A stretch of 64,000 bases of DNA from Verrucomicrobiota bacterium. GTDB lineage: Bacteria > Verrucomicrobiota > Verrucomicrobiia > Opitutales > Puniceicoccaceae. A model generated the notes under the pieces. That model was given only the letters and a program-made list of their open reading frames with translations, had not been told where the DNA came from and did not search any database. The stretch covers positions 1 to 64,000 of the forward strand of contig JBCDMB010000013.1 of NCBI GenBank assembly GCA_038744685.1, read 5' to 3'. Positions 18,064-62,017 of this stretch are shown here, piece after piece; the first letter of the stretch is position 1; every line of letters starts with the position of its first letter. The translations under genes were made by a program, and so were the position numbers.

Positions 18064-18077
18064 AGCGATCCAAAGAT

Positions 18078-27480: not shown

Positions 27481-27501
27481 GGGAGAAGTCTCCTTTGCCA
27501 T

Positions 27502-27730
27502 CGTAGGGCCTCTTGCGTCTATCCTAGAAACGCGCGGCGTCGACACGAGGTCGAGCCCTACAGAGACGCGTATCGATGCCACCGTAGTGCCTCTGCTTGC
27601 AAATGGCGTTCTGCGTCGTCCAAAGTTAACGTTTACCAGAAGACTGCGCGGCATCGCGCGAGCACGAGCCCTACAAGCCGTGAACGATTTCCAATGTAGG
27701 GCCTTTGCTTGCAAAGTGCCGCCTGCGACA
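27502..27730. repeat. REP cluster upstream of RAYT (about five units)
   Basis: Alternating inverted units lie here: GTAG-headed units at about 27503, 27583 and 27696, and opposite units ending in GCCCTAC at about 27533-27562 and 27646-27675. The best unit has core TTTGCTTGCAAA between GGC and GCC, a hairpin next to GTAG. This is the classic REP layout recognised by RAYT proteins, and the cluster ends 16 bp before the RAYT start. Confidence 0.85.
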
Positions 27731-27745
27731 CCCATTCTTCCTTCC

Positions 27746-28333
27746 ATGGAACGACTTCCCGAAGAAGGACCTTCTTTTCCGAGTCGAAAGACCAAAAGAC
27801 TTCGAAAGGGCCGTCTGTCCACCGCTGGATCACGCTATTTCCTGACCCTCGTTGCCCATCATCGAAAGAGCGGACTCGACCATCCTCAAATTCTCTCACG
27901 GATTCGGGAAGTTCTGTTTCTGATGCAGAAGGAAGGTGACTTCGATCTGCTTTGTGGAACGGTCATGCCGGATCACCTTCATCTCTTGGTCCTTCTTCAA
28001 GATCGGCTTTCTCTGTCTCAATGTGTCCAAAAACTGAAGACAAAAACGCGAAGAGTGCTCCTCGCAGCTAACCTTCGATGGCAGGCAAACTACTTTGACC
28101 ATCGACTTCGTGCTGAGCAGACAAATGAACCCTTCGCTTTCTATATTTTTCTGAATCCCTACCGAAAGAAACTCATTGATCCAGAAAGCGTTTGGGCGGG
28201 TTGGATTGGTTCCGAAAGTTATCGGCCTCACTTCCAGCAAAGTCTGATTGATGGACTCTTTCCTCCTAGCAGCTGGGTTGAAAGTGAATCCAACTTTCAG
28301 GATCTGATTGAAGTCCAGGGTAGGAAGAAGTGA
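27746..28333 (+). CDS. REP-associated tyrosine transposase (RAYT, Y1/HUH)
   Basis: From the ATG at 27746 the protein has 195 residues. A longer reading through the REP cluster upstream is rejected. It belongs to the IS200/Y1 transposase superfamily: the HUH motif is H77-L78-H79 in TVMPDHLHLL, and the likely catalytic tyrosine is Y133 in FYIFLNPYRKK. The N-terminus is basic. RAYTs cut single-stranded DNA at REP hairpins carrying a GTAG-type tetranucleotide, and the flanking sequences here carry exactly that. The gene looks intact. It interrupts the catabolic run between the SDR and the GH95 gene. A frameshifted sister copy lies at 41944. Confidence 0.9.
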   Translation: MERLPEEGPSFPSRKTKRLRKGRLSTAGSRYFLTLVAHHRKSGLDHPQILSRIREVLFLMQKEGDFDLLCGTVMPDHLHLLVLLQDRLSLSQCVQKLKTKTRRVLLAANLRWQANYFDHRLRAEQTNEPFAFYIFLNPYRKKLIDPESVWAGWIGSESYRPHFQQSLIDGLFPPSSWVESESNFQDLIEVQGRKK

Positions 28334-45600: not shown

Positions 45601-47232
45601 ACCGTTGGCGTAAAGGCTGAAGTCTCCCGCTTCTGGACCTTCATGCCCGGCGGCGTAGATGTCGCTCCGAGCTTCGTAATGGACCATCAGGGCATCCTTG
45701 TCCCAGGAGGCCCGCGCCTGAACCACACCGCGTTGCATATCCACCCAGGGAGCGGTGCGCTCTGTCAGCTCCTCCGGCAAGCCGGTTTTATCGTAATTGA
45801 CGACCTCACCGTCACTGTTTTTGAAACCTGAGACTGCGGTCAGGAGGCTGATCTCTGGAAAGCTGTAACGGATGCGCGGCGCCGGAAGAGGACCCGTTGC
45901 ATCCGGCGGTCCCAAACCCTGGGTTTGCATGCGGCTTTTGTAGTAGTAGTCGACGATGGGATCGTCGGGGTAGACAAACTTCATGATGAAGGCCACGTTA
46001 AAGAAGGAGTCCATCCAGGGACCACTGGCGAAGCCCATATACCAGATTCTCGGCTCCTCAAAGCCTTTGCCAAAGTCAGCAATCTCCTGGTGATTGCGCA
46101 GCTCATTGTAGCGCCAGTAGACATTCACGGAATCCATGGCCTTTGCCAGGACCATATTGTAAAGGTGGTTGTGACTGAGGAGAGGATACTCGAGCCGTCT
46201 GGTGATCGCCAGAAGAGGCCGCTCAGGCACAAACCCTTTCTTTTTCTCGTAAAGGAGGCCATCGCTGGAGATGTAGTAGGTGAGCTGGTTGCGCAAGGCC
46301 TTGGATGCCTCGCGGACCACCCGCTCGTCGAACCCCTCCTGCCCTTCGAGACACAAGGCCGCCAGCACAAGATCGTAGCTCATGCTCATGTGGTTGTTGA
46401 TGAACCAATGACCGGGCATATCCATTCCGGAGGTATAGCGACCGTAGGTGATCTTGCGCAGGATGCTTTTAATGTATTCACGCTCCTCCTCGGTCATGAA
46501 GCCATGCAGATAGTCGTAAGCGTAGTAGTCGTTCGCTTTTACGTGGCCCGACGTGTCTGGTAGCACCTGGAAGTGATGCTCCGCGTTGGTCTCGATGCTG
46601 ATCTCGGCCAGTTCACGGATGCGATCCGCCCCACCCTCGCGGTAGGCACGCTTGTAAGGGACTCCGCCGACGCTGACGATCTCTGAGCGACACCAGTAGT
46701 AGTAATTGTCCCGGATTCCGGCAAAAACCGGATGGTTGTTGAGTAAATCAATCATCGGTTCCTGCTCCTTCGCCAACGCGATCAACTCATCCACACACGC
46801 GCGACCCGCCTCTTCATCCTCCATGACCAGCGCCATGAAGGACCGGCTGACTAAATCAGGCCGTTGGTTCTGTGCCCAGTTGAGGAGAATTTGAAAGTAG
46901 CGCGGAGCGTCCTCCCCGAGCCTGATTTTCTCACGGATTCTTTCGATATCCTCCATCCCCATTAGCACCCGGGGATGGACACCCGGCGGCGGCACTGGAG
47001 ACATCACGCCCTGACGATAACCCTCTTCGTAGGTGCGATAATACCACGGAGAATCCGGCAACGGACCCATGTCTTCGTAAAACTGTCCGCTGAGGACATA
47101 CTCTGCCGGAGGCGTAAAACGGCCCCGGTAGGCACCATCGACCTTATACTTGTCGTCGACTTGGTAATTCGACTCCCGGCCCTCAACGAGACCGCAGAAC
47201 GCGACGCTAATCGTTAGGATAACTCGCAACAT
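42676..47232 (-). CDS. Giant multidomain secreted heparinase II/III-like protein
   Basis: ATG at 47232 gives 1518 residues with a signal peptide (MLRVILTISVAFCGLVEG); the open frame runs 80 codons further upstream through REP DNA, which is not coding. Domains: heparinase-like toroid and sandwich (1 to about 880, boundary motif SPVPPPGVHPRVLMG); a chitobiase-type C-terminal domain (about 905-985, YTLDGSEPSEDSPLY); PA14-like domains near 1000-1160 and 1190-1290; and a LamG/concanavalin-like domain (about 1320-1515, with SISFWFKPMNERGRYTLLRG). The sandwich loop is GHEGPEAGDF (about residue 527), lacking the second His and the Arg. The added domains should bind glycan. It is the largest protein here and lies downstream of the nucleoside-hydrolase-like gene. 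Confidence 0.82.
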   Translation of the reverse strand: MLRVILTISVAFCGLVEGRESNYQVDDKYKVDGAYRGRFTPPAEYVLSGQFYEDMGPLPDSPWYYRTYEEGYRQGVMSPVPPPGVHPRVLMGMEDIERIREKIRLGEDAPRYFQILLNWAQNQRPDLVSRSFMALVMEDEEAGRACVDELIALAKEQEPMIDLLNNHPVFAGIRDNYYYWCRSEIVSVGGVPYKRAYREGGADRIRELAEISIETNAEHHFQVLPDTSGHVKANDYYAYDYLHGFMTEEEREYIKSILRKITYGRYTSGMDMPGHWFINNHMSMSYDLVLAALCLEGQEGFDERVVREASKALRNQLTYYISSDGLLYEKKKGFVPERPLLAITRRLEYPLLSHNHLYNMVLAKAMDSVNVYWRYNELRNHQEIADFGKGFEEPRIWYMGFASGPWMDSFFNVAFIMKFVYPDDPIVDYYYKSRMQTQGLGPPDATGPLPAPRIRYSFPEISLLTAVSGFKNSDGEVVNYDKTGLPEELTERTAPWVDMQRGVVQARASWDKDALMVHYEARSDIYAAGHEGPEAGDFSLYANGMEWSGWRKWYLDSYFRNAVLIDGKAGIYSPTAAKLMEVTDTPHGVTMVSDNTDQYNWRKWEKNMHLWAGKISEALDGYLYDGYTSEFQDRDWEIPFQPHMREYIEGFASLDWGNWHGETRGTEMYGRWNDIDHAFRTLHLAKGDPAVNEGKGYPYLLVIDDIRKDDQQRQYDWVMQLADDIVLWKGESGVGTRDTGIEKGEISQTDLYLCSAEVPIAEKRRGLPVVNRQVRTGDPLLLVRVLHRNSTFSFPQPAYEANYSHPRIKVPATAVEPEFRILLYPHRHGDPIPITVWNEDRSELKVMIDRQVDFYDFGKTDRERSTLAVTRRGDLQQIVSAGPETPKLVSSLGWQADWNEEDEIREISFSQAAHAALDLPPLTQAYRYTLDGSEPSEDSPLYTEPVKIDESRVFKAKAFADTWPFADSNASETLTVQFSKETPEKALLLPPGTVPGLTCEVFEIHRTIFDEKNGIFTGKKNMLPPLAEHQPLATFHTDGAEIPLVIERDLPRTEMATGYFFFSGFLFAPETGDYAFKLNSCGPVQLSIGKKQLIGVTLPYGLSQKDRFGQVSLEGGWHPFEMVVSDPIFWKAGDAEPYETTLGMMTPGDSQYHPIEADFFATLKTAHVSEVEVAEVPSSSAVTVGRIEPGLFAEWFPEGATEPSLVSLASVPIDDPIEGKSVRFSGYLKLRESGLYTFMTDGGGENELRIGDEIVCKVEPGSTVDEGSIELDAGTHPITLTVMSGTSEIEIITPTRSGAESIPASFFWHNPEEVDVPEDLHYGLIIHQPFDELNGEILPLAVGEGATALGYNGRIFDDPERGKVYQPGYLNYGEYAKTYDLHIADIPRNRHDRSISFWFKPMNERGRYTLLRGRHLRHVHFNRVALDRGKMGMHASPGNTPNLTSDIKFGEWNHLVLVYEGGINRWYLNGEFIGIAEDTNSTYKDLFGFSGDDDIYVDDLKVYDRPLSQEEVLLLFEE

Positions 47233-47318
47233 AAGATGAACTTTGGTGAAGGGTTGAAGCCTGACTTGTTTCTGACCGATGGAGGGACATCGTCCTCGAT
47301 GTCCGCCAGCAGTCCGCA

Positions 47319-47438
47319 CGGCGTCGTACCCTTCGGCTCTGCTCAGGGCCGTGAGCTCGTCGAAACGGCAAGCACGAGCCCTACAAAAACAAATCCTGAA
47401 CGGACCAAACGTAGGGCCTTTGCTCGCAAAGCGCCGCC
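47319..47438. repeat. REP pair plus longer repeat, second copy
   Basis: A longer sequence (CGTCGTACCCTTCGGCTCTG and following) at 47319-47366 runs into a unit with GCAAGCACGAGCCCTACA (to about 47385), and a GTAG-headed unit follows at 47410-47438. The first part recurs at 34261-34323. It lies between two minus-strand genes, so it may separate the large lyase gene from the genes before it. Confidence 0.8.
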
Positions 47439-47474
47439 AACATCGGAGTGGCGTATTTCCACGCCCGCTCACAC

Positions 47475-48344
47475 CTACTTTACTCCCCCTTCAGAAGAAA
47501 ACTCCTCAAAGAACGCGTGGACATCCTCCAGATCGTCGAACCCGAAGATCCACGCCGTTTCCACCACATCGGAAAAATCTAGACCTCCGCTCTCGACGTA
47601 GGTATTCAGGAATCGCCCCTCCACACCATTGAAGCGATTTGCAGTCGCGATCGCCATTTCCCAGATTTCCTGCAAACGGGCATCCTTCACCTGCTCCTTC
47701 CATTCCACTACTTCTCCCGTGCGGAAGTTCGGGCTTCCGTTGTCACCCCGATTCCCGTCCGGGATCTTCACGTAGTTGGCATACTCCCGGAGCGACTCGA
47801 GATCTGCTGGTGTCGTGGTGTTCTCGTTCCAACGACTGTGCTGGACCACATGGAACTGAACTCTTGGATCGAAATTGGGTAAAACCTCCCGCAACTCCCG
47901 AAAGAGCTCGGCCGAAAAGTCCGACTGCCCTCCCTCTGCGATCCAGACGCTGCCTCCGGACTCTAGGGTAGTCCGGGACAGATCGGTTACCTCTCGCAGA
48001 GCCGTCTCAGGATCTCCATGACGATCTGACCAATTTGCTCCAAAGGCCTCTACGAAAAGTTCGTCAGCCGGGACATAGAGACCCTCCTGAAACCCATAAG
48101 CCCCTGCGACCGTGTGATAGGAAACGTCGGAGAAACGAGGGTCTGCGAGCATAGTTGCCACTGCCGCCACCGAATGCACATCATCCACATCCGTCCGCAG
48201 ATCGAAATGCGCGAGGTAAAGGTCCCGTTCCGGATCAAATCGTCCCAAGTTCTCGGATGAAACGGCAAAGGAAGCGGATATCAAAAAAACGAGCATAAAC
48301 CAGAGAGAATGCCTGCTTGGGCAAATTCGTTTTCGAATCGTCAT
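47475..48344 (-). CDS. Secreted nucleoside-hydrolase-like (DUF1593-like) protein
   Basis: The 289-residue protein has a signal peptide (hydrophobic SLWFMLVFLISASFAVSS). The mature start contains FDLRTDVDDVHSVAAVA, which resembles the calcium-binding aspartate cluster of inosine-uridine nucleoside hydrolases and DUF1593 proteins. WIAEGGQSDFSAELFREL further on fits the same fold. Such folds in carbohydrate loci may split N- or O-glycosidic bonds; the real substrate is unknown. Its start overlaps the stop of the PEP-CTERM gene before it by 4 bp, so the two are translationally coupled. This is an assignment by short motifs only. Confidence 0.55.
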   Translation of the reverse strand: MTIRKRICPSRHSLWFMLVFLISASFAVSSENLGRFDPERDLYLAHFDLRTDVDDVHSVAAVATMLADPRFSDVSYHTVAGAYGFQEGLYVPADELFVEAFGANWSDRHGDPETALREVTDLSRTTLESGGSVWIAEGGQSDFSAELFRELREVLPNFDPRVQFHVVQHSRWNENTTTPADLESLREYANYVKIPDGNRGDNGSPNFRTGEVVEWKEQVKDARLQEIWEMAIATANRFNGVEGRFLNTYVESGGLDFSDVVETAWIFGFDDLEDVHAFFEEFSSEGGVK

Positions 48345-49171
48345 CGACCTCTCTCAGGTCGGCGGACGAAGGTAGTAGCACCAATAAACGCAAGAAGGGA
48401 CATCAATAGCCCAGCACTGGATGGCTCAGGAATTACGCTAATCACAGAGTCGTCAAACGTGTAGGTGTTACCAATTGCTGTGAGGAGCGGAGTGTTTGTT
48501 AGCACATAGGCACTATTCCAAGAATTTGAATTACGGGTAAATGTTGTGGAGGTTGTGTTAAGAAACCCATCCCAATTGATGAATGCTTCGTAGTCGAAGA
48601 GGTCAGGATCCCCTTCATTTACACCAACAAGCGTCAGCCCTACAGAGATAACCGCCGGATCTGTCTCGTCCGTAGCTAGAAAGTTGGCTCCTGTAAGAAG
48701 GGTCGTGTCGAACGTAGTCCCAATAGCAAACGGGTTAGATAAGAAAGAGTTTCCGGCGAAACGAGAAGAGTTGTTCCAAGTTCCAGCCTCTCCACCCATA
48801 GAGAACAAAAAGTGGAAAGTCGCATCAAAGTCGAAAGTTTCAGGATCATCACTCTCAAAACCAATTCGAAATCCTACGTTGACCGGGTTGTTTGTGTCCA
48901 TAATCACATCCCTGACGGTTAGGTCGAACTGAAGTGTTTGGCCGGGGACGAGAGTAACTGGCGTGTCAAAGATAGACTGAGAACCTGCCGCAGAGGAAAA
49001 ATCCATATCAGCAACAAAGGACATTGTGCCACCATTTACGCCATTTCCGACGAATGTAGCATCGTTCACATCACTACCAAAAAACGACCAATCAGAGCGC
49101 GAGACTAGATGGCCCAGAGCCAAATTTGCGGAAACTAAGCAGCTGAGACTAAGCAAGAGTAGGTTTTTCAT
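48341..49171 (-). CDS. PEP-CTERM sorting domain protein
   Basis: ATG at 49171 gives 276 residues with a signal peptide (MKNLLLLSLSCLVSANLALG). The body is beta-rich with no known catalytic motif. The C-terminus has SVIPEPSSAGL, a hydrophobic stretch and a basic end (RRPERGR), the PEP-CTERM sorting tail. It is a paralogue of the protein at 49533: both share DATFVGNG, GFRIGFE/GFRVGFE, LFDYEAFINWDG/LFDYEASILWDG and NSAYVLTN/NSVYVLTN. Its stop overlaps the nucleoside-hydrolase-like start by 4 bp. This ties a surface-sorted protein to an enzyme in one transcript. Confidence 0.85.
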   Translation of the reverse strand: MKNLLLLSLSCLVSANLALGHLVSRSDWSFFGSDVNDATFVGNGVNGGTMSFVADMDFSSAAGSQSIFDTPVTLVPGQTLQFDLTVRDVIMDTNNPVNVGFRIGFESDDPETFDFDATFHFLFSMGGEAGTWNNSSRFAGNSFLSNPFAIGTTFDTTLLTGANFLATDETDPAVISVGLTLVGVNEGDPDLFDYEAFINWDGFLNTTSTTFTRNSNSWNSAYVLTNTPLLTAIGNTYTFDDSVISVIPEPSSAGLLMSLLAFIGATTFVRRPERGR

Positions 49172-49472
49172 TTTGTGACAGTGTGGGATGGAAATTCTCG
49201 GCAAACCCGTAGGGAAAATGACTGGTAGATCTTTCGGGAGCTAAGAAACCAGCTCGAGTCATTACGGGACTCCAAACTGATTCAAGCTACCTCTGCGGAA
49301 GATCGTAATTTGAGTTTTCTAGAAACCGAAAATACCGAACAGGGGATGGACTTAACAGGGCTCAAATCTCGACTAAAGCCCATGCAATTGAGAACAATCA
49401 CCAATCTAGAGCAAAGGTGTAGGGTGACCTTTTTCAGAGGCAGACGACGATGGTCTCTCTTCAAAGGAAAGT
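49172..49472. other. Intergenic region between two PEP-CTERM genes
   Basis: This 301-bp stretch should hold the promoter of the PEP-CTERM gene at 48341. I see no gene and no REP unit in it. The motif with TTTCGTATTTATG found before the other two PEP-CTERM genes is absent here. Confidence 0.4.
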
Positions 49473-49532: not shown

Positions 49533-50336
49533 TTAGCTCATTCGCCGCCTGCGAATGGCTGCAAGAACGCCGATCATCGCTAAAGCTGACATCACAAGAG
49601 GGGCACTAGAGGGCTCAGGGATCACAGAGACTGCCGCTCCTCCGATCGTGTAAGTATCACCGGCAAGACCAAAGGCAGCATTGTTATTGGTCAATACGTA
49701 CACGCTGTTCCATGTGTCAGTGTTTCGAGTGAACACTGTAGATGGACCGTTGGTCACTCCATCCCATAGAATAGATGCTTCATAGTCAAAAAGAGAGGGG
49801 TCGCTCCCATTTACCCCTAGTAGGGTTAGGGATACAGAAATGTCGATAGGCCCAGGTCCTGTTGCAATGCTGGTGGCACCAGTGTAATTAGTGCTATCAA
49901 ATAAAGTCCCTTGCGAATAAGGGTTAGCACTTCCGGAAGCTCCTCCGAAACGACCAATCACACCTCCCCCAGACGAAAAGACAAAATGGATTGTGGCATC
50001 AAGGGCAGAATCTGCGCTGATGTTTTCGAATCCTACGCGGAAACCGACATTATTTTGGGCCTGTTGGATCACGATGTCGGTCATCGTGAAATCAAATTGA
50101 AGCGATTCGCCTACACCGAGGGTCACGTCAGAGTCAAAACTTGACTCGGCTCCAGTGGCTGCACTTCCAGTCGAGTTGACGGCCATCCCACGAACAAATC
50201 CATCGTTGCCGTTACCAACAAACGTTGCGTCAGTGTTCGTGCTGAAATCAGTCCAATTGGAAAGGACTACGGCTTGGCTAGATGCTATGCTCGAAAAACC
50301 GAGAAAGCCAACGAGTGAGAGGTAAGATTTAATCAT
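49533..50336 (-). CDS. PEP-CTERM sorting domain protein
   Basis: The 267-residue protein starts with a signal peptide (MIKSYLSLVGFLGFSSIASS). It ends with the sorting tail SVIPEPSSAPL, about 17 hydrophobic residues and RRRRMS. The body matches its neighbour at 48341 along the whole length, so the two arose by tandem duplication. It probably is exported and processed by an exosortase encoded elsewhere. It forms its own transcription unit: a strong terminator follows, and a TTTGCGTATTTATG element lies 120 bp before the start on the same strand. Confidence 0.86.
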   Translation of the reverse strand: MIKSYLSLVGFLGFSSIASSQAVVLSNWTDFSTNTDATFVGNGNDGFVRGMAVNSTGSAATGAESSFDSDVTLGVGESLQFDFTMTDIVIQQAQNNVGFRVGFENISADSALDATIHFVFSSGGGVIGRFGGASGSANPYSQGTLFDSTNYTGATSIATGPGPIDISVSLTLLGVNGSDPSLFDYEASILWDGVTNGPSTVFTRNTDTWNSVYVLTNNNAAFGLAGDTYTIGGAAVSVIPEPSSAPLVMSALAMIGVLAAIRRRRMS

Positions 50337-50725: not shown

Positions 50726-50849
50726 GGGGGCGAGGCTGACTACAACATACCGCTGAGAATTCGCTCTAAGAGCAACAGTGGAATGATTGCGCCACATTAT
50801 TTTCCCTTATCCCTATGAATCCAATCCCGCCTTCGGTTACACCGTTCCA

Positions 50850-51830
50850 ATGACCCGAATCAAGGTTGGACTGCACGGTTCAGTGGGGCATCAAATCGGA
50901 GCCACACTAATTGACCATCCAAAAGGTGAAGTAGCGGCTCTCTGCGATTTTGATCCGAAAGAGTTTGGCCCCCATTTTGCCTCGGCCCGCGTCTTCCAAA
51001 ATCTCCAAGAAATACTCGACGACGAGAGTATTCAGCTCATTTCGTTTTGCTCACGACGCAAGGACATCCAGGGAGAACAGATCATCGCCGCCCTAAACGC
51101 GGGAAAGCATGTGTATGCAGAAAAGCCGTGTTGCCTCTCCGAAGATATCTTGGACCAGATCATCGAGACCGCCCGAAAGACCGGAATGCGTTTCCACGAA
51201 ATGAACGCTAGTTCCTTTTCGCCTCCGTATGCTGCTATGCGGGAAGTCGTGCAGTCCGGTGTAATCGGTGAGGTGGTTCAGATTCTCAGCCAAAAGTCTT
51301 ATCCGTGGACGGACTGGCGCCCGAAGGACGAACGCGTGGACGGGGGCCTCACTTGCCAGGCCGGAATCTACAATGTCAGATTCGCCGAGCATGTGGCCCG
51401 CTTAAAAGTGCGCTCTTTGAAAATTGAGGAAACCCTTCTGGGAAACGAACACGAAGACAGCGACTGTCGACGGGCCGTTTCAATGCTCATGACTTTCGAG
51501 AATGGAGCCGTAGGAAGTTCAGTTGCCAACTACTGCTGCCCTGAGCCTCCCGGTTGGAGTCAGTGGGGATACGAAACCCTCCGTATTTTTGGAACGAAGG
51601 GTTTTGTCGAATCGATCGATGGAGGACGGATAGGGACTCTTGCTATCAGTGGCAAGACTCCCCAGACGCTTGACCTATCCTCACCGGGAGAAGACCTCCT
51701 CGATCTGTTTCTCGAGGAAATCCTGACTGGCGAGGACAAGGTTCCCTTATCCCTCGAAGAAGAATTGAGCCCCACTCGCTGGGTTTTGCGAGCGAAGGCT
51801 GGTAACACACCCATTGAAACCCGTCTTTAA
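50850..51830 (+). CDS. Gfo/Idh/MocA family oxidoreductase
   Basis: ATG at 50850 gives 326 residues; the 21 codons before it show no family match. The Rossmann loop is unusual (GLHGSVGHQIG at 8-17), while EKP at 91-93 is standard. The C-terminal domain has DGGLTCQAGIYNVRFAEH in the position of the substrate-binding histidine. The protein is cytoplasmic and should oxidise or reduce a sugar with NAD(P). It differs clearly from the family member at 142. It starts a plus-strand unit with two members of the unrecognised lyase-like family (9-bp gap to the first) and has a conserved element 125 bp upstream. Confidence 0.85.
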   Translation: MTRIKVGLHGSVGHQIGATLIDHPKGEVAALCDFDPKEFGPHFASARVFQNLQEILDDESIQLISFCSRRKDIQGEQIIAALNAGKHVYAEKPCCLSEDILDQIIETARKTGMRFHEMNASSFSPPYAAMREVVQSGVIGEVVQILSQKSYPWTDWRPKDERVDGGLTCQAGIYNVRFAEHVARLKVRSLKIEETLLGNEHEDSDCRRAVSMLMTFENGAVGSSVANYCCPEPPGWSQWGYETLRIFGTKGFVESIDGGRIGTLAISGKTPQTLDLSSPGEDLLDLFLEEILTGEDKVPLSLEEELSPTRWVLRAKAGNTPIETRL

Positions 51831-51839
51831 CTTTAAATC

Positions 51840-54236
51840 ATGATGAAACTAGATACCCCCTTCGTCACCGGTAAGTCTACGCTGCTCTGCCTTCTGCTCT
51901 GCATTTCTTCGCAAGCGAGCCTGGAAGCAGATTGGGAAAGCCCTGAAATCTCTAGCACGGCACTCGTCTCTGCCGTTGCCGACCTTCCAGAAACGACAGT
52001 GAACGAAAAGCTTCAAAAGGCAGTCCTTGAACTCGCTCTCGAAAATGCAACAAAGCTTTCTCAGGAAGGAGACGCGATACGGTCTCGGGAACTCCTCGCA
52101 GATATTGAGAAAGCACTCCAGAGCGATCCCGCATCCTTAACAGAAGTGCCCTCGGGTATCCTTCCTTCTGTTCCGGAATGGGAGGGCAATCCCTACATCA
52201 CCGCTGAACTCAATCGTTTTGAAAAAGAACTGAGCCGACCCGACCGCATAGTCTACCTTGGCGAGCGTGGCGCCGAACAGTTTCTCGCCTCAAACCGACG
52301 GAATAAGGATGGCCACAACAGTCGGGTTTTCGCCGCCGAAATCCGGAACTACGCTTGGGCCGCCCTCCATCCTCAAAGTCCATACTTTGCAGATCCATTA
52401 GTCATCCAGAGAGCTTTGCGACGAGCCCACGCCTACGTGGACGCTTTCAACCGAACAGATATTTCGTTAAAAGACATGACCATCAATGACTTCTTCGCCT
52501 GTTACTCATTTCTGGACGGGTTGCTGACGTTGAAGGAGGGTGCTTGGGATTTCGTCTTACCGTCGCAGAGAGAAGCTTGGCTAAAGGCCGCCGAAAAAGC
52601 ACGAGACGCCTGGCTTTCTTACATCGACAAGATGGGGGGCTGGTGGGACGGCGAGTCCTTGAGTGGTTTCGGAGTTTTCTGCAATCACGACATCACCAAA
52701 GGCATGAATATCCAGTTCGCCAACATGATCCTGGAAGATGGAAAGCATGCGGATGTAGCCAAACGAGTCATTGCTCTTCAAAAAAAAGCTCTCCTACCCG
52801 ATGGAGCCGTTCGCTACATCAAAAAGCAAAACCAGATTTACGGCTACCATATGGTGAACATTGAGAAGTTCGTCCGCCATTGGGAACTCACGGGGGATGA
52901 GAACGCCTATGATCTTTTGATCGAAAGCAGGAACTACTATCCGCTCTCGACCGAGCCGGGAAACGTCGCTGAATACTGGACTGCACCCTACTGGAAGTAT
53001 CAGTGGCATGGGGGTGCATTCGGGAATGGAGCCGAGGTCATTGCCGGGCTTCTCGACTGCGGTTATAACCGCGCCATTGCCCAGCAAAATCTCGACTACG
53101 GCAATCCACCTAGCGACAACCATTTGAGCAAAGACATCATTGCCGCCCCCTACTTTCGTTCGGAATTGGAAGCCGAGGAACGGCTGGATAACTTCGTCGT
53201 TTACGATCGAAACCTGATGTCACCGCGTGGGCGTTTCGGGAATTTTTCGTTTGTCGGGTCTACGAGAGACTACGAGGAAGATCCGGGAAAAATGTCTTTC
53301 ATGGGTGCCATGGTGACTGATCCACCGAGCCGGGAACACCCATTGAATGCAGCCCTCAAAGCCGTTTACCCAAAAGTCCTCTTGGAAACCGATAAGCCCA
53401 ACTGGCAAGGAAGTGCCTATCTTTCGTATCAGGAGAAAAACGCGACCGCCGTCGGGCGTAACTTTGGGAGTCTGAGCACCTCCTACGATATGTTGAAAAC
53501 GACCTACGGTCACGCCATTACACCGGTCAATTGGTCGGCTGACCAGCAGTGGCTCTGCTTCCCCGACCGAATCATTGGGAGCATTGCAGTGTATCCAAAG
53601 ACCCCTGAAGAGAAGGCATACGGTGTATCCGGACATGTACGCCTCGGCTATGGGCTGGGGCGTGCTCACCAAAAGATCATGGAACGACTCGACGAGGATA
53701 CCTACGCGTATGGCGATCTACGGATCAAAGTCCATGCCCAGAACTATGCCGATACTTCGATGGAAGAGTCCGGTATCTTGCGAGACGATCGGCGGTGGGC
53801 GACTGAGATCGTTTTTAAGGACGAGAATCAGACCGAGGGTGAGGACAAGTTGCACACATACAGCCGGGAGAATCCTTATATTTTCACCATCGAAGTCTAT
53901 CCGGCATGGTCCCAACCGGCATCTGTTGTGAACCCATTTAGGGAAGAGGAGGTTTCCGGACTCGCGGTTCAGCTGGAAGACAAAACGATCCTAATGGTCC
54001 ACAATCGAACAGACCAAGAGACGGAGTTCCTCACCGAGCTTCCTTCCTGGGGGGTCGAGGGTGAGAGCGCATTATTCTCCTCGAGCGAAGGAGATCCGGT
54101 GGTTCCTGTTTTCGTCGAGGTGGATGATGTATTTGAATTCTCCCTACCCCCGCACGCGCACCAAGTGCTCATTTATAGTGCCGATCCTGACGATCTTAAA
54201 CCGGGACTCTACGATTTCGATGAGATGCTTCTGTAG
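51840..54236 (+). CDS. Secreted protein, unrecognised alpha/alpha-toroid lyase-like family
   Basis: The 798-residue protein has a signal peptide (hydrophobic STLLCLLLCISSQA). A helical segment with LPETTVNEKLQKAVLELALE follows; it recurs in the sister gene at 54293 and in altered form at 3689. The central helical region carries INDFFACY, DGAVRYIKKQNQIYGYH and LSTEPGNVAEYW. The signature VYDRNLMSPRGRFGNFSF introduces the beta-rich half, which ends with HQVLIYSADPDDL. The plan (toroid plus sandwich) and secretion fit a polysaccharide lyase. The N-terminal binding domain of the 946-residue relative is missing. It lies 9 bp after the Gfo/Idh/MocA gene and 56 bp before its sister. Confidence 0.6.
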   Translation: MMKLDTPFVTGKSTLLCLLLCISSQASLEADWESPEISSTALVSAVADLPETTVNEKLQKAVLELALENATKLSQEGDAIRSRELLADIEKALQSDPASLTEVPSGILPSVPEWEGNPYITAELNRFEKELSRPDRIVYLGERGAEQFLASNRRNKDGHNSRVFAAEIRNYAWAALHPQSPYFADPLVIQRALRRAHAYVDAFNRTDISLKDMTINDFFACYSFLDGLLTLKEGAWDFVLPSQREAWLKAAEKARDAWLSYIDKMGGWWDGESLSGFGVFCNHDITKGMNIQFANMILEDGKHADVAKRVIALQKKALLPDGAVRYIKKQNQIYGYHMVNIEKFVRHWELTGDENAYDLLIESRNYYPLSTEPGNVAEYWTAPYWKYQWHGGAFGNGAEVIAGLLDCGYNRAIAQQNLDYGNPPSDNHLSKDIIAAPYFRSELEAEERLDNFVVYDRNLMSPRGRFGNFSFVGSTRDYEEDPGKMSFMGAMVTDPPSREHPLNAALKAVYPKVLLETDKPNWQGSAYLSYQEKNATAVGRNFGSLSTSYDMLKTTYGHAITPVNWSADQQWLCFPDRIIGSIAVYPKTPEEKAYGVSGHVRLGYGLGRAHQKIMERLDEDTYAYGDLRIKVHAQNYADTSMEESGILRDDRRWATEIVFKDENQTEGEDKLHTYSRENPYIFTIEVYPAWSQPASVVNPFREEEVSGLAVQLEDKTILMVHNRTDQETEFLTELPSWGVEGESALFSSSEGDPVVPVFVEVDDVFEFSLPPHAHQVLIYSADPDDLKPGLYDFDEMLL

Positions 54237-54292
54237 ATAGAAAAGCCGTATTTTGTCGCAAAAACAGAACTCTCCACCTCCTAGACTCAACC

Positions 54293-56647
54293 ATGTTCAA
54301 AACAACTCCTATCATCATTGCCCTTATCGCTGCCCTGTCATCCAACTCAATGGGCAACGTTCAAAGGACTGTCGACAGGCTTCCCGAAACCACTCTTGCC
54401 CAAAAACTCAAGAAGCAGCTACTGCTCTGGGGAATCGAGGACGCCGCCGCCTATGAAGAGGCGGGTATGCAAGACTATGCTGAAGAGCACTACCGGGATA
54501 TCGCGGCCTTGGCTAGAAAGGACTTTCCGGAGCCGGATCCAAATACTCTGGCGGAACTCCTCATTCCCATGCAGGAACCCGACCCTGATCGTAACCCGGC
54601 CCTTGCTCGCATTTACCAGTCAGTAGAAAAAGCCATGAGGGAGGACGAGCGATTCCCGAAGGGACAATTCACGCCAAGGCTCAATAATGGATGGTATTAT
54701 ACACGACAGGCTGAAACCCTTCATCTACTGGCGTGGGCGTTCTGCCACCCTCAGAGCGAGTATTATCTGGATCCAGAGTTGTTTCCCATCGTCATGCGTC
54801 GTCTCTCCCAGAGCCTGGAGTTCTGGTATAACGATAGTGAGCAGAGGATCATAGTGGGTGAAAAGGATCTTGGCACCAGCAGTGGCCTCGACTCCGAACA
54901 GGATTTCAAGGAGACAGCCAGTGCGCTCCTCTACATGATGCTTACTGTCCCGGACTACTTCCTCCCAGCAGAGAAGGAACGCTGGCTGACCGGCGTGCGA
55001 CGTAAAACTGAAATTCCAATGCGTAGCCACGTTGTACAGGCCGACAACTTCATCAGGCAGACGCCAGAAGTATATTCATCCAAGGTCTTCCGCATTCCCA
55101 ACAAGAATTACAACTGGATGGTCGGTCTTGCGATTTCGTCCCTCCTGTTGGACGACGAGGAGTTGATGGAAGGTGCCCTGACGATCCTCGAAATGTTGAA
55201 CCTCTCCATTTACGAGGACGGCGGGATGCCCTATATCAACTACGAGAATGAATGTCCCTCCTATCATGGAATTCACGTGGTGGGTAACCTGTGGATGCAC
55301 AGGCTAACAGGCGAACCGCGTGCGATGGAAAATCTCGAGAAGCTGCGTCGGTTTTATCCGACCCATGTGGAGCCAAGTGGAGAATTGGAGTATTTCACCG
55401 ATACTTTCGCCAAGCATTACTTTTCAGGACCGGGAGTCGCCAAAACCGGCTCCACTATTCTTGCGCAGCTCTTCTCCTGCCCGCAGAATCAGCGAATCGC
55501 CGAGGTCAGCGGAGGGGCCGATTCTGTCAACACTCCAATGTTTGCCGAGATTTACCGTCCCGGTGTAGAGGCTGCGGCTGGGCAAGATCAGTTCGTCTTC
55601 TATGACCGCAATATACAGGGCCCACGCGGCCGTTTCGGTGACTGGTCCTTCGCGGGCACTGGCCGGATCTATGACCCCGATAGGAAACTGCGTCGCGGTA
55701 AGGACACCCTGGTTGGAGCCATGATCAGCGACGACCCCTCCGAACGAAGGGGACGACCGCTTAACGCGGCGATTGCCGCTGTGAATATCGGCGTTCTGAA
55801 GCCGGAGGAAGACCGGGTGGGCAAGCTGCGGGAGTTCAACTATTACATGCTCAGCACCCGCGAGCAGAATACGGATATTGTCGGTCCTAATTTTGCCAGT
55901 TTCTCGAGCCATTTCATTCCCAAGGGATCCAAGTCCAACTGGAGACATACCTTGTCAGAATACCGGACCAACCAACTCTTCCTAATGTTGCCCGACCGCC
56001 TCGTCGGCTTTGTCAGCCTCGACGCCAGTGAAGAAGAACCGAGTGGAGAAGTCTCCGGCGAGATCCGCCTCTACGATGGCCGCAACAGGCACAGGACAGA
56101 GGTCGGTAAAAGACACGACCTCGAGAAGAACGGTGAAGACAGTTTCATTTTTGGCAGGATGCAAATCCAGCTCGTCGAGCATAATTTCGAAGAAGTTGTT
56201 GTTGAGCCCACCTTTCTCACCCAGTACGGGGCGGATGACGCAGCCGAATCCGTCTTCCTGGAACATTCAGGCGATGGGCAGGAGCAATTCTACTTCGTTT
56301 TCGAGGGCTTTGATCACACCAGTTCTGAGCCTTCCGAAATCGCCGTGAAAGAGGACGGGCCTCTGCGCATGCTAGCCGTCAAAGCAGGCGAGACTCAATA
56401 CATGGTCCTTCAGAACACCAGTGATTCTACTGTTTCGGTCCCGGTCTTTGAAATAAAGAGAGGCCAAACCCGCCATCTTTACCGGGGCACCGGACTCGAA
56501 TCCAGCCGCGAGGAGATCGACCGCAGTGTCGACGAAGTCAGTGTAGAGCCATTCTCCCATATTGTTATGGTCGACGGCCCCGATCTAGGAGAGGCAGAAC
56601 CCTACAGGATCATGGTCGGAGCTGATTTGGTTGAGGATCCTAGTTGA
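54293..56647 (+). CDS. Secreted protein, unrecognised alpha/alpha-toroid lyase-like family
   Basis: The 784-residue protein has a signal peptide ending near residue 21. LPETTLAQKLKKQLLLWGIED matches the helical segment of the 51840 protein, and VFYDRNIQGPRGRFGDWSF matches the family signature of the 3689 protein. The segment with EDGGMPYINYENECPSYHG aligns with the candidate catalytic region of both relatives; the Asn/Glu and the Tyr-His pair are kept in all three. Function as a lyase is inferred. The three proteins have diverged widely, more than the two closest heparinase-like paralogues. A decayed fourth member begins just after its stop. Confidence 0.6.
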   Translation: MFKTTPIIIALIAALSSNSMGNVQRTVDRLPETTLAQKLKKQLLLWGIEDAAAYEEAGMQDYAEEHYRDIAALARKDFPEPDPNTLAELLIPMQEPDPDRNPALARIYQSVEKAMREDERFPKGQFTPRLNNGWYYTRQAETLHLLAWAFCHPQSEYYLDPELFPIVMRRLSQSLEFWYNDSEQRIIVGEKDLGTSSGLDSEQDFKETASALLYMMLTVPDYFLPAEKERWLTGVRRKTEIPMRSHVVQADNFIRQTPEVYSSKVFRIPNKNYNWMVGLAISSLLLDDEELMEGALTILEMLNLSIYEDGGMPYINYENECPSYHGIHVVGNLWMHRLTGEPRAMENLEKLRRFYPTHVEPSGELEYFTDTFAKHYFSGPGVAKTGSTILAQLFSCPQNQRIAEVSGGADSVNTPMFAEIYRPGVEAAAGQDQFVFYDRNIQGPRGRFGDWSFAGTGRIYDPDRKLRRGKDTLVGAMISDDPSERRGRPLNAAIAAVNIGVLKPEEDRVGKLREFNYYMLSTREQNTDIVGPNFASFSSHFIPKGSKSNWRHTLSEYRTNQLFLMLPDRLVGFVSLDASEEEPSGEVSGEIRLYDGRNRHRTEVGKRHDLEKNGEDSFIFGRMQIQLVEHNFEEVVVEPTFLTQYGADDAAESVFLEHSGDGQEQFYFVFEGFDHTSSEPSEIAVKEDGPLRMLAVKAGETQYMVLQNTSDSTVSVPVFEIKRGQTRHLYRGTGLESSREEIDRSVDEVSVEPFSHIVMVDGPDLGEAEPYRIMVGADLVEDPS

Positions 56648-56660
56648 CTCAGTACTGGAT

Positions 56661-56866
56661 GCCGAGGGACTTACAGATGTTGAACATCCACAAAATCTAC
56701 CCAAAGACGAAAAAAACCTACACACCTACAGCCAGGAAAACCCATACATTTTTACCGTCGAAGTCTATCCCGCTTGGTTGCAGCCGGCCACCAGGTCCTG
56801 ATCCAAAACCCCGATCCTGATGATCTGGTGCCGGGTCAGTACAATTTTGACGAGTTGATGCGGTAG
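56661..56866 (+). pseudogene. Fossil of a fourth lyase-like family member
   Basis: In one frame the DNA reads KNLHTYSQENPYIFTVEVY and PAWLQPA, close to KLHTYSRENPYIFTIEVY in the 51840 protein. It then jumps to another frame reading HQVLIQNPDPDDL, GQYNFDELMR and a TAG at 56864, matching that protein's end (HQVLIYSADPDDL). About 240 bp between the two parts are missing relative to 51840, and the N-terminal two thirds are gone. The fragment sits directly behind the gene at 54293, so the island once held at least four members here. Confidence 0.85.
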
Positions 56867-57024: not shown

Positions 57025-59331
57025 TTAATCGATCCTGACCAACAACCCTTTCTCATCATCCTCGCGGAAACGGATGAGGGATTCCTGATCCGGCCAAACA
57101 GCTAGGATTTCTTCCTCTGACACGGTGGTCCGTGGCACCAAATCTCCTACCCGAAAAGGGAACAGCAGTATTCGAAAATGAGGAGCCGTTGATTCCACAG
57201 GAATGATCAGTCTTTTGCCCGTCGCGTCACGATGAGCGGTATAATCTTCGATTCGGAAATCGATGACCTCGGGAGTCTCACCGGACGTGTCATCCGCCCG
57301 TAAGACCCGCACGAGTAAACAAGGCTCACCCGGGGCCGGTTCGACGCCGATCTCTCCCAGAATCAAATCCCGACCGACCTGTTTCTTGATCTCCAGATCG
57401 GTCGGCAGTTGCAGATACCATTCATAAGTTCGTTCTTTTCGGTCTTTCTGGATATCATCAAACACCACCACAAAAGGGTTTTCTCCTCGGGCGGCTACGG
57501 TCCCGCGAATCGCTTTTTCCACCTCATTGTAGGGACGTTTGCGCAAACCGTTCGTGTGGGAGTAGCCTGTTTCACTGCCGTAAAGATGATCGGGTGCCCA
57601 AGCAGGAAGGTAGTCGACTGGCCAACCGAGATCGGCAGGTCCAGCCATCTCCTTTTCCCAGGAAAGATAGCGCGAATCGTTCACCGTTGGCCAGGGCGGC
57701 GTCCACTCCCAGTCGTAGGCATACTTGAGGTCGGCTACGGCGATGGAACCGTTCTCATCGTCACTCTGGCAAAGAAAACGAACCGAAGGTGCTTTGTAAG
57801 GCTGAGCCTTTCCATCAATGTGAACCAGCGAGTGCATCTTACTCGACGAAAAGAGACGGAAGTCACCCGCAAAGGCCCAGTTACGACCGAGCGCACTCAT
57901 CGTAATATTCCCCCGATCCACCCGATCGTGGCCGATCAAAAAGGCATCGGATCGCGCATCCAAGGTGAACTGGAGGGCGTCTTCCGACCAGTCGCTCCGA
58001 AAGACCTGCTTGCCCCGTTCGGGGTAAAAAACCGTTAGAGATAAACCAGACTCTTCCAGCACTTCCTCACGGCTTTCTGGTCCCTCCCATTGGTCCCCGT
58101 AGATCATCCAATCCAACCAACCCTGCCAACGGAACCGACGCTCAAAATCATCTCCGATGAGGTAGCGGTAAATATAATTGGCGGCGGGAGAATCCGGATA
58201 CATGTAGCGGGCGATCAGCGTCGAAGTCGGATACAGCTCTGCATAGGGCCCTCCGGAAGCACCTCCCATGAATTTACCGCCGGGCTGCGGTTCATACTCA
58301 CGGACCATGTAGTCGATGAAATTCCGAAACTTTTTAGTCTCAAAAATATTATAGCCGCGACGAGCGAGCACCATGAATCCCCGGCCTCCAGCGCGCAATC
58401 CCAAGTCAGGTCCGTAGCCATCTTCGTGGCACGCTCCGGCTTCGGTGAAGGACACGTCCCAGTAATCCCGCAAGACTTGGCTAATGTTCTCGAAAGTTTC
58501 CTCGTCGAATCCCGGCTCCCCTTCGATCGCTGCGAGGAGCACCGCGAGGTCACCGTGATAACCGTAATGATTACTCCCGGCAAACCCTAACGGCATATCC
58601 ATTCCATAGGCACGACGTCCTTGTGTCGAAACCGCAATAGCCTCACTCACGATCTCCCGCTGCTCCTCCGTCATATCGTTATACAAAACGTCGTAGCTAA
58701 GAGCGAAACCTGCAGCTCCAATCGTCCAACTGACTTGAACGTCAAATTCGTCCGTTTCCCAGATATTGAAACGTTCGTTCAGTTTAAGTCCGGTCCCGCC
58801 CCGGACGTCACCTCCGGCATTCATTTCTCTGGAGGCGATCAACAATTTCGCATGGTTCACAATTGTCCCGATCATGACCTCTTTCAGGTATTTGTCATCG
58901 AAGAGAACCGCGTAAAGGGAAGCCATTCCCCAGCGAACGTTACGTGCTTCGTCCGGTTTGATGTATTTCTCGAGCTCTTCCACGGTGGGGTTCGAGAAAT
59001 CAGCCTCAGCAAAACCCCCATAGTTGCGGATCATTTCGGAATTCACCCGCTGCATGATCGGCCAGAATGCCCGGCTGAAGTCGCTGTTAGAATCCAACCG
59101 GCTACGAATCTCTGGCAAATCATCTGCTGTAAAAAACACCCTCGGATGCTCTCCAACCGGTGGTAGAGGAGACAATTGCCTCGCCTCTTCTCCTCGTAAG
59201 GATAACGTATTTAAAATATCACTACATAAAAACACAGAGAGAACTGCGACTCTAAGAAACGGAGCTGCCCGGCTAAATAATTGCGCGCAGCACGACGTTA
59301 GGGGTAACCGTGCCGTAGTCATGATCCGCAT
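57025..59331 (-). CDS. Secreted heparinase II/III-like polysaccharide lyase
   Basis: The start is uncertain: ATG at 59331 or 59322 gives 768 or 765 residues with a hydrophobic leader (FLRVAVLSVFLC); an earlier ATG at 59430 would add 33 residues without a better leader and would cover the conserved upstream element. PLPPVGEHPRVFFTADDLPEIRSRL marks the family boundary motif. The sandwich loop is GHDRVDRGN (about residue 465): the second histidine of H-x-H is replaced by Arg, but D-R-G is kept. DDIQKDRKERTYEWYLQLP lies near the end. It is divergent from the lyase at 59549 and converges on the fossil gene across a REP pair. Confidence 0.8.
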   Translation of the reverse strand: MRIMTTARLPLTSCCAQLFSRAAPFLRVAVLSVFLCSDILNTLSLRGEEARQLSPLPPVGEHPRVFFTADDLPEIRSRLDSNSDFSRAFWPIMQRVNSEMIRNYGGFAEADFSNPTVEELEKYIKPDEARNVRWGMASLYAVLFDDKYLKEVMIGTIVNHAKLLIASREMNAGGDVRGGTGLKLNERFNIWETDEFDVQVSWTIGAAGFALSYDVLYNDMTEEQREIVSEAIAVSTQGRRAYGMDMPLGFAGSNHYGYHGDLAVLLAAIEGEPGFDEETFENISQVLRDYWDVSFTEAGACHEDGYGPDLGLRAGGRGFMVLARRGYNIFETKKFRNFIDYMVREYEPQPGGKFMGGASGGPYAELYPTSTLIARYMYPDSPAANYIYRYLIGDDFERRFRWQGWLDWMIYGDQWEGPESREEVLEESGLSLTVFYPERGKQVFRSDWSEDALQFTLDARSDAFLIGHDRVDRGNITMSALGRNWAFAGDFRLFSSSKMHSLVHIDGKAQPYKAPSVRFLCQSDDENGSIAVADLKYAYDWEWTPPWPTVNDSRYLSWEKEMAGPADLGWPVDYLPAWAPDHLYGSETGYSHTNGLRKRPYNEVEKAIRGTVAARGENPFVVVFDDIQKDRKERTYEWYLQLPTDLEIKKQVGRDLILGEIGVEPAPGEPCLLVRVLRADDTSGETPEVIDFRIEDYTAHRDATGKRLIIPVESTAPHFRILLFPFRVGDLVPRTTVSEEEILAVWPDQESLIRFREDDEKGLLVRID

Positions 59332-59420
59332 CGTCCAGCAGTCGATTACTATGTCAATACTTGATACGAAATGAAACATAAAAACCCAATTATTCTCACC
59401 TTTTTCGGTTTCACGAGTCG

Positions 59421-59455
59421 TTTTGCGCAAAGAGGTAGTTGTTTCACTCAGTGTG
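59421..59455 (+). promoter_or_regulatory. Conserved TTTTGCGCAAAGA element, second copy
   Basis: This 35-bp stretch agrees at 28 of 35 positions with that at 50691-50725. It lies 94 bp before the plus-strand lyase start and 90 bp before the minus-strand lyase start at 59331. TTTTGCGCAAAG is nearly self-complementary, so it could serve both directions. Confidence 0.5.
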
Positions 59456-59548
59456 CTTCAAGAGGTTGGTGAGGGTCGGAAGCTTAAGTCCTTTAGTTTT
59501 CTTAAGAGCGAATACAAAAGGCCGCGGGATTCGCCTTCAACAACCCCA

Positions 59549-62017
59549 ATGAAACAGTTTTACCTTCTAGTTCTTCCCCTCCTAGTTGTCAGCAGTTCTT
59601 TAATGGCAACAGACCTGCAACCCTCTTCGCCCCGTTTCTCCGCCGAGCAAATCTTGAATGGTGAATTTCCCGGCAGAGAGCCTTCTCCGGCGCGTCAAGT
59701 GACTCACAAAATCGAAGGTTTCGACTACAGTCGACTCTACTCAGTCCCTTCTCCGGGAATACACCCAAGAGTGCTTTTTGGTCCCGAAGACTTACCACGA
59801 ATCAGAAAGCAATTCCTCAACAACCAGTATGCGGCTGAGATGTTGGAACAACTGAGAGCGCGGACGGAGCGAAACTTATCGGGACCCGATGGATGGGGCA
59901 GCGAGCTATTTGCCGCGATGGCCAGCAGTGACTTGGATAAGGTCAACGAGGTATGGAAGGACCCTCGCAACCCAAGAAAAGAAGGACCACCCGGAAGCGG
60001 CGGAGATCCTTTTGCAGCAGCCCTCATGGACAAGGCCTTTCTCAACTTGATCGACGAAGACAGCGAAAGTGGAGCAGAGGTGGCAGGAGCAACCGCTACT
60101 TTGGCGAGGTTTCTCCAACCTCTTGTCGAAAAGGCAGCCAGAAGCCCGGGGAGCGAAAACTACTGGCTGTCGGTTCGCAGAGTCATGGGAGACAGTGCCA
60201 CCATCGGATTCCTTTATGACTTTGCTCAACCTTACATGACTTCCGAGCAAGCGGATGTAACCCGGAAGCTCATCGCGACCGCGGTTAGTGGACGCTATGG
60301 ACTCGGGATGGACCTACCGGCACACTGGGTCAACTGGAACTTCATCGGGATGGGTCTCTATTTTCCGTTGCTGGCACTTTCCATCGAAGGGGAGCCAGGG
60401 TACGATCCCCGAATCTACGAGCGCGGATGCGACGTGGCAAAAAATTATATTCTTTGGGGAAACTCTGCCAACGGCGTCGGAACAGAAGCGATTGGATACC
60501 ATACTGCGGGCATGTCTCACACGGCGATACTGATGTTGGCCATGGCGAACCGGGGGGAAAATCTCTTCACCTTAGAGCGGTGGCGGCGCATGTTCGACAC
60601 TTGGGGAATCTACACGATGCAGCCCTACGGAGCCGAATGGCAGAGTAGCGGCGACTTGGGGACATTTCCACCGAATCCGTCGCTGGTCAGTGTCGCCTGT
60701 TTCTTTTTTCCCGAAGACAAGAGAATAGCCTTCGTTGAACAAAACCTCGAGAAGCCAAGACTCGCAGGACGGATGGACAACCGTCTTCTTCAACTACTCT
60801 GCCCTCCAAATCCTAACGGTGATTTCGGAACGATCAAAGCCTCCTCTCTAGGACTGGCAGACACTCTCTTTGACGAAGAAAGAGGCATCCTATTCACGCG
60901 CACCGGTTGGGACGAAGAGGATACTTATCTCCAAGTAGTGTGTCGAGACGACACCACATTCGCTTCTCACGACCACCCTGATCGCGGCGCATTTTACTTT
61001 ACCTCCCACGGACAGGCTTGGGCAGTCAGTTCAATGCGGATGACTGAACCGCAATATCTCAACCAAATTACGATCAACGGTCGCGGACAAGGGGCCTTTG
61101 CTCCTCCTGGAGAGTGGGTCGAAGTGATCGATTCAGAGGAGGCCACTTTCGCAGTCATGGACACGAAATACTGTTACGATTGGCAATGGCAAAAGACCGC
61201 TTTCCTAACATCCGACAAACAGCTTGAAGACGAGCCTTGGCTAGAGTGGATCCGAGAACCGCGCGACCGTCTATTGAGCCGTTTCCCCCTCGACCTGTGG
61301 GAACGTGATCCGTTACCGGTCGTCCAAGAGTATTATGAGGGATATCTGGCTGGCAATCCTCGGATGTGGGGTGCCGAAGATTCCTGGGTGGTTCGAGCAC
61401 CACACAATCCGGTCAAAAAAGCGTTTCGGACTGTCGGTCTCGTTAGAGGAGAACACCCTTACCTACTCATCTTCGATGATATTCAAAAAGATGACGCGGA
61501 ACAGTTTTACCAATGGTTTATGCGGATCCCAAATCAGGTAGAACCGTATGAAATGGGAGTAGACGAGGTGATCCTCGGGCCCATTACTGATCGTAGGGAC
61601 AACTCCCACAGGGTCCACCTGCCACACAACATCAGTGGCAGGCCACTTCCTGAGAAAGGCGAACCAATGCTCTTGATCCGGGTTCTACAAGCGAACCAGC
61701 CCGACATCCCGTCGCGTCAGAATACTCTATCCGTCGAGACCCTTAATTTTGTGAAACACGACGATACCTTTCAATACTCCGGTCGTGAAATGGGGCTTGG
61801 CAAGAGACTGGTCATTCCCAGTCGGTCCGTAGAACCGGAATACAAGGTTCTCATGTATCCTTACTACCATGGCGATCCACTCCCGGAAACCGAATTGTCG
61901 AAAGACGGAAGCGTCCTCACCATTCAATGGGAGGATCAAGTCGATGAGTTTCGATTGGCTGAAGACGAAGAAGGCTTGACTCGCTTCGAGATGACACGTC
62001 TCGACCCAACACGATAA
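59549..62017 (+). CDS. Secreted heparinase II/III-like polysaccharide lyase
   Basis: ATG at 59549 gives 822 residues with a signal peptide (MKQFYLLVLPLLVVSSSLMA). It shares the leader element RFSAEQILNGEFPGREPSP, the boundary motif YSVPSPGIHPRVLFGP, toroid blocks such as YGLGMDLPAHWVNWNFIGMG, the sandwich loop HDHPDRGAF (His474 first) and the end block LMYPYYHGDPLPETEL with the lyase at 18078, often word for word. The two must be recent duplicates with the same or a close substrate. It should act outside the cytoplasm. A GH29 fusion gene follows after 18 bp, so the pair lyase plus fucosidase occurs here as it does near 16771-20522. Confidence 0.84.
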   Translation: MKQFYLLVLPLLVVSSSLMATDLQPSSPRFSAEQILNGEFPGREPSPARQVTHKIEGFDYSRLYSVPSPGIHPRVLFGPEDLPRIRKQFLNNQYAAEMLEQLRARTERNLSGPDGWGSELFAAMASSDLDKVNEVWKDPRNPRKEGPPGSGGDPFAAALMDKAFLNLIDEDSESGAEVAGATATLARFLQPLVEKAARSPGSENYWLSVRRVMGDSATIGFLYDFAQPYMTSEQADVTRKLIATAVSGRYGLGMDLPAHWVNWNFIGMGLYFPLLALSIEGEPGYDPRIYERGCDVAKNYILWGNSANGVGTEAIGYHTAGMSHTAILMLAMANRGENLFTLERWRRMFDTWGIYTMQPYGAEWQSSGDLGTFPPNPSLVSVACFFFPEDKRIAFVEQNLEKPRLAGRMDNRLLQLLCPPNPNGDFGTIKASSLGLADTLFDEERGILFTRTGWDEEDTYLQVVCRDDTTFASHDHPDRGAFYFTSHGQAWAVSSMRMTEPQYLNQITINGRGQGAFAPPGEWVEVIDSEEATFAVMDTKYCYDWQWQKTAFLTSDKQLEDEPWLEWIREPRDRLLSRFPLDLWERDPLPVVQEYYEGYLAGNPRMWGAEDSWVVRAPHNPVKKAFRTVGLVRGEHPYLLIFDDIQKDDAEQFYQWFMRIPNQVEPYEMGVDEVILGPITDRRDNSHRVHLPHNISGRPLPEKGEPMLLIRVLQANQPDIPSRQNTLSVETLNFVKHDDTFQYSGREMGLGKRLVIPSRSVEPEYKVLMYPYYHGDPLPETELSKDGSVLTIQWEDQVDEFRLAEDEEGLTRFEMTRLDPTR

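Follow-up and report, generated by a model that had tools for sequence, protein, structure and literature searches.

Three proteins encoded in the window, by which we mean the whole 64,000-nucleotide stretch of DNA that was analyzed, are probably secreted uronate-polysaccharide lyases of the superfamily that joins an (alpha/alpha)n toroid to an antiparallel beta-sandwich. We refer to these proteins as P1, P2 and P3. They and the neighboring features discussed below are located as follows.

P1, 51840-54236, plus strand: putative secreted uronate-polysaccharide lyase, intact ORF of 798 amino acids; key residues N282, Y336, K386, D456 and R463.
P2, 54293-56647, plus strand: intact ORF of 784 amino acids belonging to a divergent clade; key residues N270, Y324, K374, D438 and R445.
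P3, 3689-6529, minus strand: intact ORF of 946 amino acids with an extra N-terminal domain; key residues N436, Y490, K540, D602 and R609.
Fossil, 56688-56866, plus strand: 3′ remnant of a P1-type gene, with a frameshift and an internal deletion.
Gfo/Idh/MocA oxidoreductase, 50787-51830, plus strand: 9 bases upstream of P1.

The three proteins are homologous over their full lengths, with identities of 26% between P1 and P2 (788 columns, E 2e-58), 29% between P1 and P3 (781 columns, E 1e-85) and 24% between P2 and P3 (762 columns, E about 1e-39). All of them carry YDRN, PRGRF, a Q/E-N-Q/E segment and a Y-H pair, as a sequence-only reading of this DNA had proposed. The signal peptides assigned in that reading are likewise supported, wherein the N-terminal hydrophobic stretch of each protein tops every other stretch by a crude hydrophobicity comparison rather than by SignalP. 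The fossil is also real. Two blocks in different frames match P1, the first (56688-56792) corresponding to residues 661-695 with 66% protein identity and the second (56783-56860) to residues 772-797 with 62%, and about 76 codons have been lost between them ahead of a TAG stop at 56864-56866. Judged by its sequence, this remnant is of the P1 type and not of the P2 type.

The original observation that these proteins correspond to no named family holds for Pfam and NCBIfam, where no curated model covers them, and for solved structures searched by sequence. Neither P1 nor P2 matches anything in Pfam or NCBIfam, even with the threshold set at E 1, and the sole Pfam match of P3 is a weak, N-terminal, HpiC1-like one (PF22825) that falls below the cut-off. 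When 18 diverse members of the family were compared with Pfam, no catalytic family and no Lyase_8 or other PL domain appeared at E 1, and CBM-type matches occurred in one member each. Searches of PDB sequences with two family profiles yielded no lyase at E 10; the PDB sequence matches that were obtained, with single proteins and with the two profiles, were discarded as chance, nanobodies and designed helical proteins being examples. No strong match to a characterized family with a non-lyase function emerged. On this comparison, which covers Pfam, NCBIfam and the PDB and has CAZy outside it, the family appears new to all three resources while lying inside a known superfamily with altered conserved residues.

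Placement in that superfamily is supported by structure prediction. An AlphaFold model of P1 based on a 14-sequence alignment (pLDDT 76.2, pTM 0.76) is helical as far as residue 438 and turns to beta strands at residue 451. The best 39 PDB matches to its fold (E 2.6e-11 to 2.8e-6, identity 8-11%) are all toroid-plus-sandwich lyases, with PL8, PL12, PL15, PL17, PL21, PL33 and PL39 represented, or human dermatan sulfate epimerase 1 (DSE), followed in the ranking by an unrelated glycosidase; the TM-scores are modest, at 0.36-0.48 by query length. The model of the P3 core is weaker (pLDDT 68.3, pTM 0.64) and shows the same helix-then-strand plan, and the 50 PDB matches listed for it all have this fold, PL35 and PL40 among them. 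The two models and their PDB matches agree on the toroid-plus-sandwich plan put forward earlier, and neither model lacks the toroid or the sandwich. As modeled, the fold is that of the toroid and antiparallel beta-sandwich lyase superfamily. Prediction quality is poor for the active-site loops of both proteins, with pLDDT below 50 for P1 residues 266-279, 327-338 and 381-395, and side-chain geometry therefore lies beyond what these models resolve.

Profile comparisons with 19 PL8 sequences (PF08124) and 23 heparinase II/III sequences (PF07940) point to the same superfamily. The helical half matches the PL8 profile at 95.1% (E 3e-8), and the match to the heparinase II/III profile ranges from 83.9% for the whole family profile to 93.0% for the helical half alone. 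Control values were 0.1-1.0% for reversed alignments, no more than 0.3% for shuffled columns and 0.1% for sulfatases, and PL8 and heparinase II/III, profile against profile, match each other at only 2-5%. Taken alone, the P1/P3 clade (92.6%), the clade of tandem genes described below (70.5%) and the clade of groundwater and planctomycete members (only 13.5%) match PL8 less strongly than the family does, yet each scores well above its own controls; four distant sequences taken alone do not. No similarity to the PL8 or heparinase II/III profiles was detected in the beta domain (0.2%). At this value, a candidate D-R...R match between the beta domains of the family and PL8 is unsupported. We also rejected an equivalence of R463-x-R465 with the heparinase HxHxD motif, suggested by the spacing to the next Phe; profile comparison gives no alignment of the two beta domains, and the candidate motif begins 12 residues into its domain, versus about 42 in PL33.

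The high helical-half match to PL8 would fit a PL8 subfamily; alternatively, these proteins may already constitute one of the CAZy PL families for which both a Pfam model and a solved structure are lacking. We consider either reading unlikely. The 18 members searched carry no Pfam Lyase_8 or any PL domain, the PL8-invariant H253 is absent, the beta domain is unlike that of PL8, and the profile searches did not find the solved PL structures.

Lyases of the superfamily carry a catalytic Tyr and a charge-neutralizing Asn in the toroid, approximately 53-60 residues apart, and sequence alignment indicates that the family has this pair. In the profile alignment, the Asn and Tyr of PL8 line up with N282 and Y336, respectively, whose spacing is 54; the equivalent spacing is 54 in PL35 and PL12 (PMC12088678) and 53 in PL33 (PMC11848413). 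Among core members, N282 is present in 27/28, Y336 in 28/29, K386 in 28/29, and D456 and R463 in 29/29 each. All five residues are present in P1, P2 and P3 and in all four of the distant members (L028, L029, L034 and L035), a branch from which the DG, DR and second Arg motifs are missing.

No His is conserved throughout the family in the alignment of core members, the best-conserved being H774 (25/28), H337 (23/29) and H387 (23/29). The PL8 His aligns to I327, which is unconserved. In PL33, PL35 and PL12, a beta-domain His located 130-155 residues past the Tyr completes the active site, and the stretch from Y+130 to Y+155 in the family has a conserved Arg and no conserved His. K386 lies at Tyr +50, near the PL8 Arg at +54, a correspondence by spacing only. 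The claim that the Y-H His is a conserved residue did not survive the wider alignment, wherein this position is His in 23, Arg in 4 and Gln in 2 of 29 members. The Tyr and Asn are therefore the first residues for testing.

The missing conserved counterpart of the superfamily's catalytic His could signify a different chemistry. It would also fit a non-catalytic or differently acting protein that binds or hydrolyzes glycans on a lyase-derived scaffold, as would the extra domains of some members (PF22825-like in P3, and those behind the CBM-type matches). However, the retention of N282, Y336, K386, D456 and R463 in very distant members would not be expected of proteins freed from catalysis, and toroid glycosidases are far weaker fold matches (GH127 4qjy, E 9e-3), so we judge such a function very improbable.

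If these proteins are lyases, the glycan chain would sit in the interdomain cleft, where N282 would neutralize the uronate carboxylate at the +1 subsite. Y336 would take the C5 proton and return it to the glycosidic oxygen, resulting in syn beta-elimination. In known relatives, a His activates the Tyr or serves as the base; here, K386 and R463, with D456, may stand in for it. A Tyr-driven syn elimination has been proposed for PL33. We tentatively suggest that the proteins represent a new PL family that branched early between PL8 and the heparinase II/III-type families, and jointly that beta-elimination proceeds by Tyr, Asn and Lys/Arg only, with neither the catalytic His nor the His-bound metal site on which known members of this fold rely. 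We hold a truly His-free mechanism no more firmly than this because, in most members, the part could be played by H337 or H387.

The neighborhood of the three genes is rich in functions for glycan degradation. Two clear alpha-L-fucosidases, a GH95, a GH2, a sulfatase, a GDSL esterase, an altronate dehydratase and a sodium symporter are encoded in the window, together with SDR and RraA-like genes identified by eye and by mutual similarity. Six mutually homologous proteins resemble heparinase II/III, with a 98.5% profile match to PF07940 sequences.

8327-10825: heparinase II/III-like protein.
18060-20522: heparinase II/III-like protein.
34511-37174: heparinase II/III-like protein.
42676-47472: heparinase II/III-like protein.
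57025-59430: heparinase II/III-like protein.
59423-62017: heparinase II/III-like protein.

These six have no heparinase or lyase match in Pfam and at best a weak HepB match in NCBIfam, and they form a second lyase group that is without a curated model. One of them, at 8327, is marginally similar (E 0.0015) to GAGase VII, a lyase of PL35. Their match to the profile of the P1-P3 family is not significant (1.8%). Elsewhere in the window, a single ORF at 14447-16735 encodes a sodium:solute symporter with a kelch/NanM-like domain fused at the N terminus, an IS200-like transposase lies within the sugar-degradation region at 27368-28333, and the neighboring genes at 48341-49204 and 49533-50336 encode products that are 46-47% identical, the second with a weak PEP-CTERM signature.

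Comparable settings recur in other genomes. SDR, RraA-like and GH43-like genes lie beside members elsewhere, and a heparinase-like gene adjoins a member in genome G363 and lies within the same 20 kb as one in G273. On the contig that holds the window, a tandem set of four further members is preceded by three sulfatase-like genes and a heparinase-like gene. From these surroundings, the substrate is probably a glycan that is acidic, sulfated and rich in fucose. Because the gene settings of the groundwater and planctomycete members are different, substrates probably differ by clade.

Gene location also bears on the possibility that the proteins are C5-uronyl epimerases of the same fold, as in DSE, which would invert uronates before other lyases act. 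Among the PDB fold matches of P1, DSE (6hzn) ranks second, and it employs the same Tyr (PMC11848413). However, secreted proteins present in multiple copies among sulfatases, glycosidases and heparinase-like genes are better suited to depolymerization, and an epimerase role seems to us a distant prospect relative to lyase activity.

Three members, as originally counted, proved too few, since the genome carries eight intact copies in addition to the fossil: P1, P2, P3, one copy on contig 1 that is 48% identical to P1, and the tandem four at 75-87 kb on the contig of the window (G000:C13; L011, L012). The tandem genes constitute a sub-clade with YDRAIMGPRGRW-type motifs, and the middle two are extended by long additional regions at the C terminus. 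In a maximum-likelihood tree of 33 members, these eight fall into four places: P1 pairs with the contig-1 copy, P3 groups with a gene of G273, a genome from another family, P2 forms a long branch by itself, and the tandem genes group with those of G363. Local triplication as the source of P1, P2 and P3 was rejected on account of their separate clades.

A single-protein search found no member in two other genomes of the same genus or in 32 other close relatives. Members occur in 16 of 384 genomes at the class level and in 5 of 289 drawn phylum-wide, and two genomes (G266 and G108) carry five each. A contig scan made with a five-member alignment, the 18-member alignment being too diverse for this use, located members in Verrucomicrobia, Lentisphaerae, Pirellulales, Rhodopirellula and Anammoximicrobium assemblies; in the class of Anammoximicrobium, only 1 of 199 genomes has one. 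No relative was found in the plasmid records searched. This scattered distribution across Verrucomicrobiota, Lentisphaerota and Planctomycetota fits gain and loss by transfer.

If these assignments are correct, the family would add to the lyases that act on acidic, probably sulfated, fucose-containing glycans, a carbon pool for which few depolymerases are known. With eight copies here and five in both G266 and G108, it would also seem that the capability of PVC bacteria is understated because such lyases go unannotated. The family would also provide a case of the shared lyase/epimerase fold working without its usual histidine, and such a case bears on the relationship between PL8 and the heparinase-type families.

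Comparison with known systems places the family near several lyase groups. With PL8 (chondroitin AC, hyaluronate and xanthan lyases), it shares the helical-half profile, the aligned Asn and Tyr, and a D-G before the Tyr loop, whereas the PL8 His is invariant (19/19) nine residues before the Tyr, where the family has I327, and the beta domain is not alignable, with the Lyase_8 models unmatched. With the heparinase II/III-type families (PF07940; PL12, PL15, PL21 and relatives), it has in common an aligned N, E and Tyr-His segment. However, their own HxHxD motif (23/23, 22/23 and 22/23) has no counterpart in the family's beta domain, the first part of which has no conserved His, and PF07940 is not matched in Pfam. 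PL38 (8bdq, presumed to be among the sequences searched) gave no sequence match at E 10 in the PDB profile searches. The ulvan lyase Uly1040 of PL40 is not matched in sequence, and its strictly conserved His485, part of a His485/His487 metal-assisted base, is without a family counterpart, whereas its fold matches the P3 model at E 1.0e-7. In PL40, Asn245 and Tyr305 take the same roles (PMC12915356). Finally, the Tyr/His dyad lyases of PL33, PL35, PL39 and PL17 differ in their conserved beta-domain His, which the family is missing, and their solved structures are unmatched by sequence, but they resemble it in predicted fold, and their Asn-Tyr spacing of 53-57 is near the family's 54 (PMC11848413, PMC12088678).
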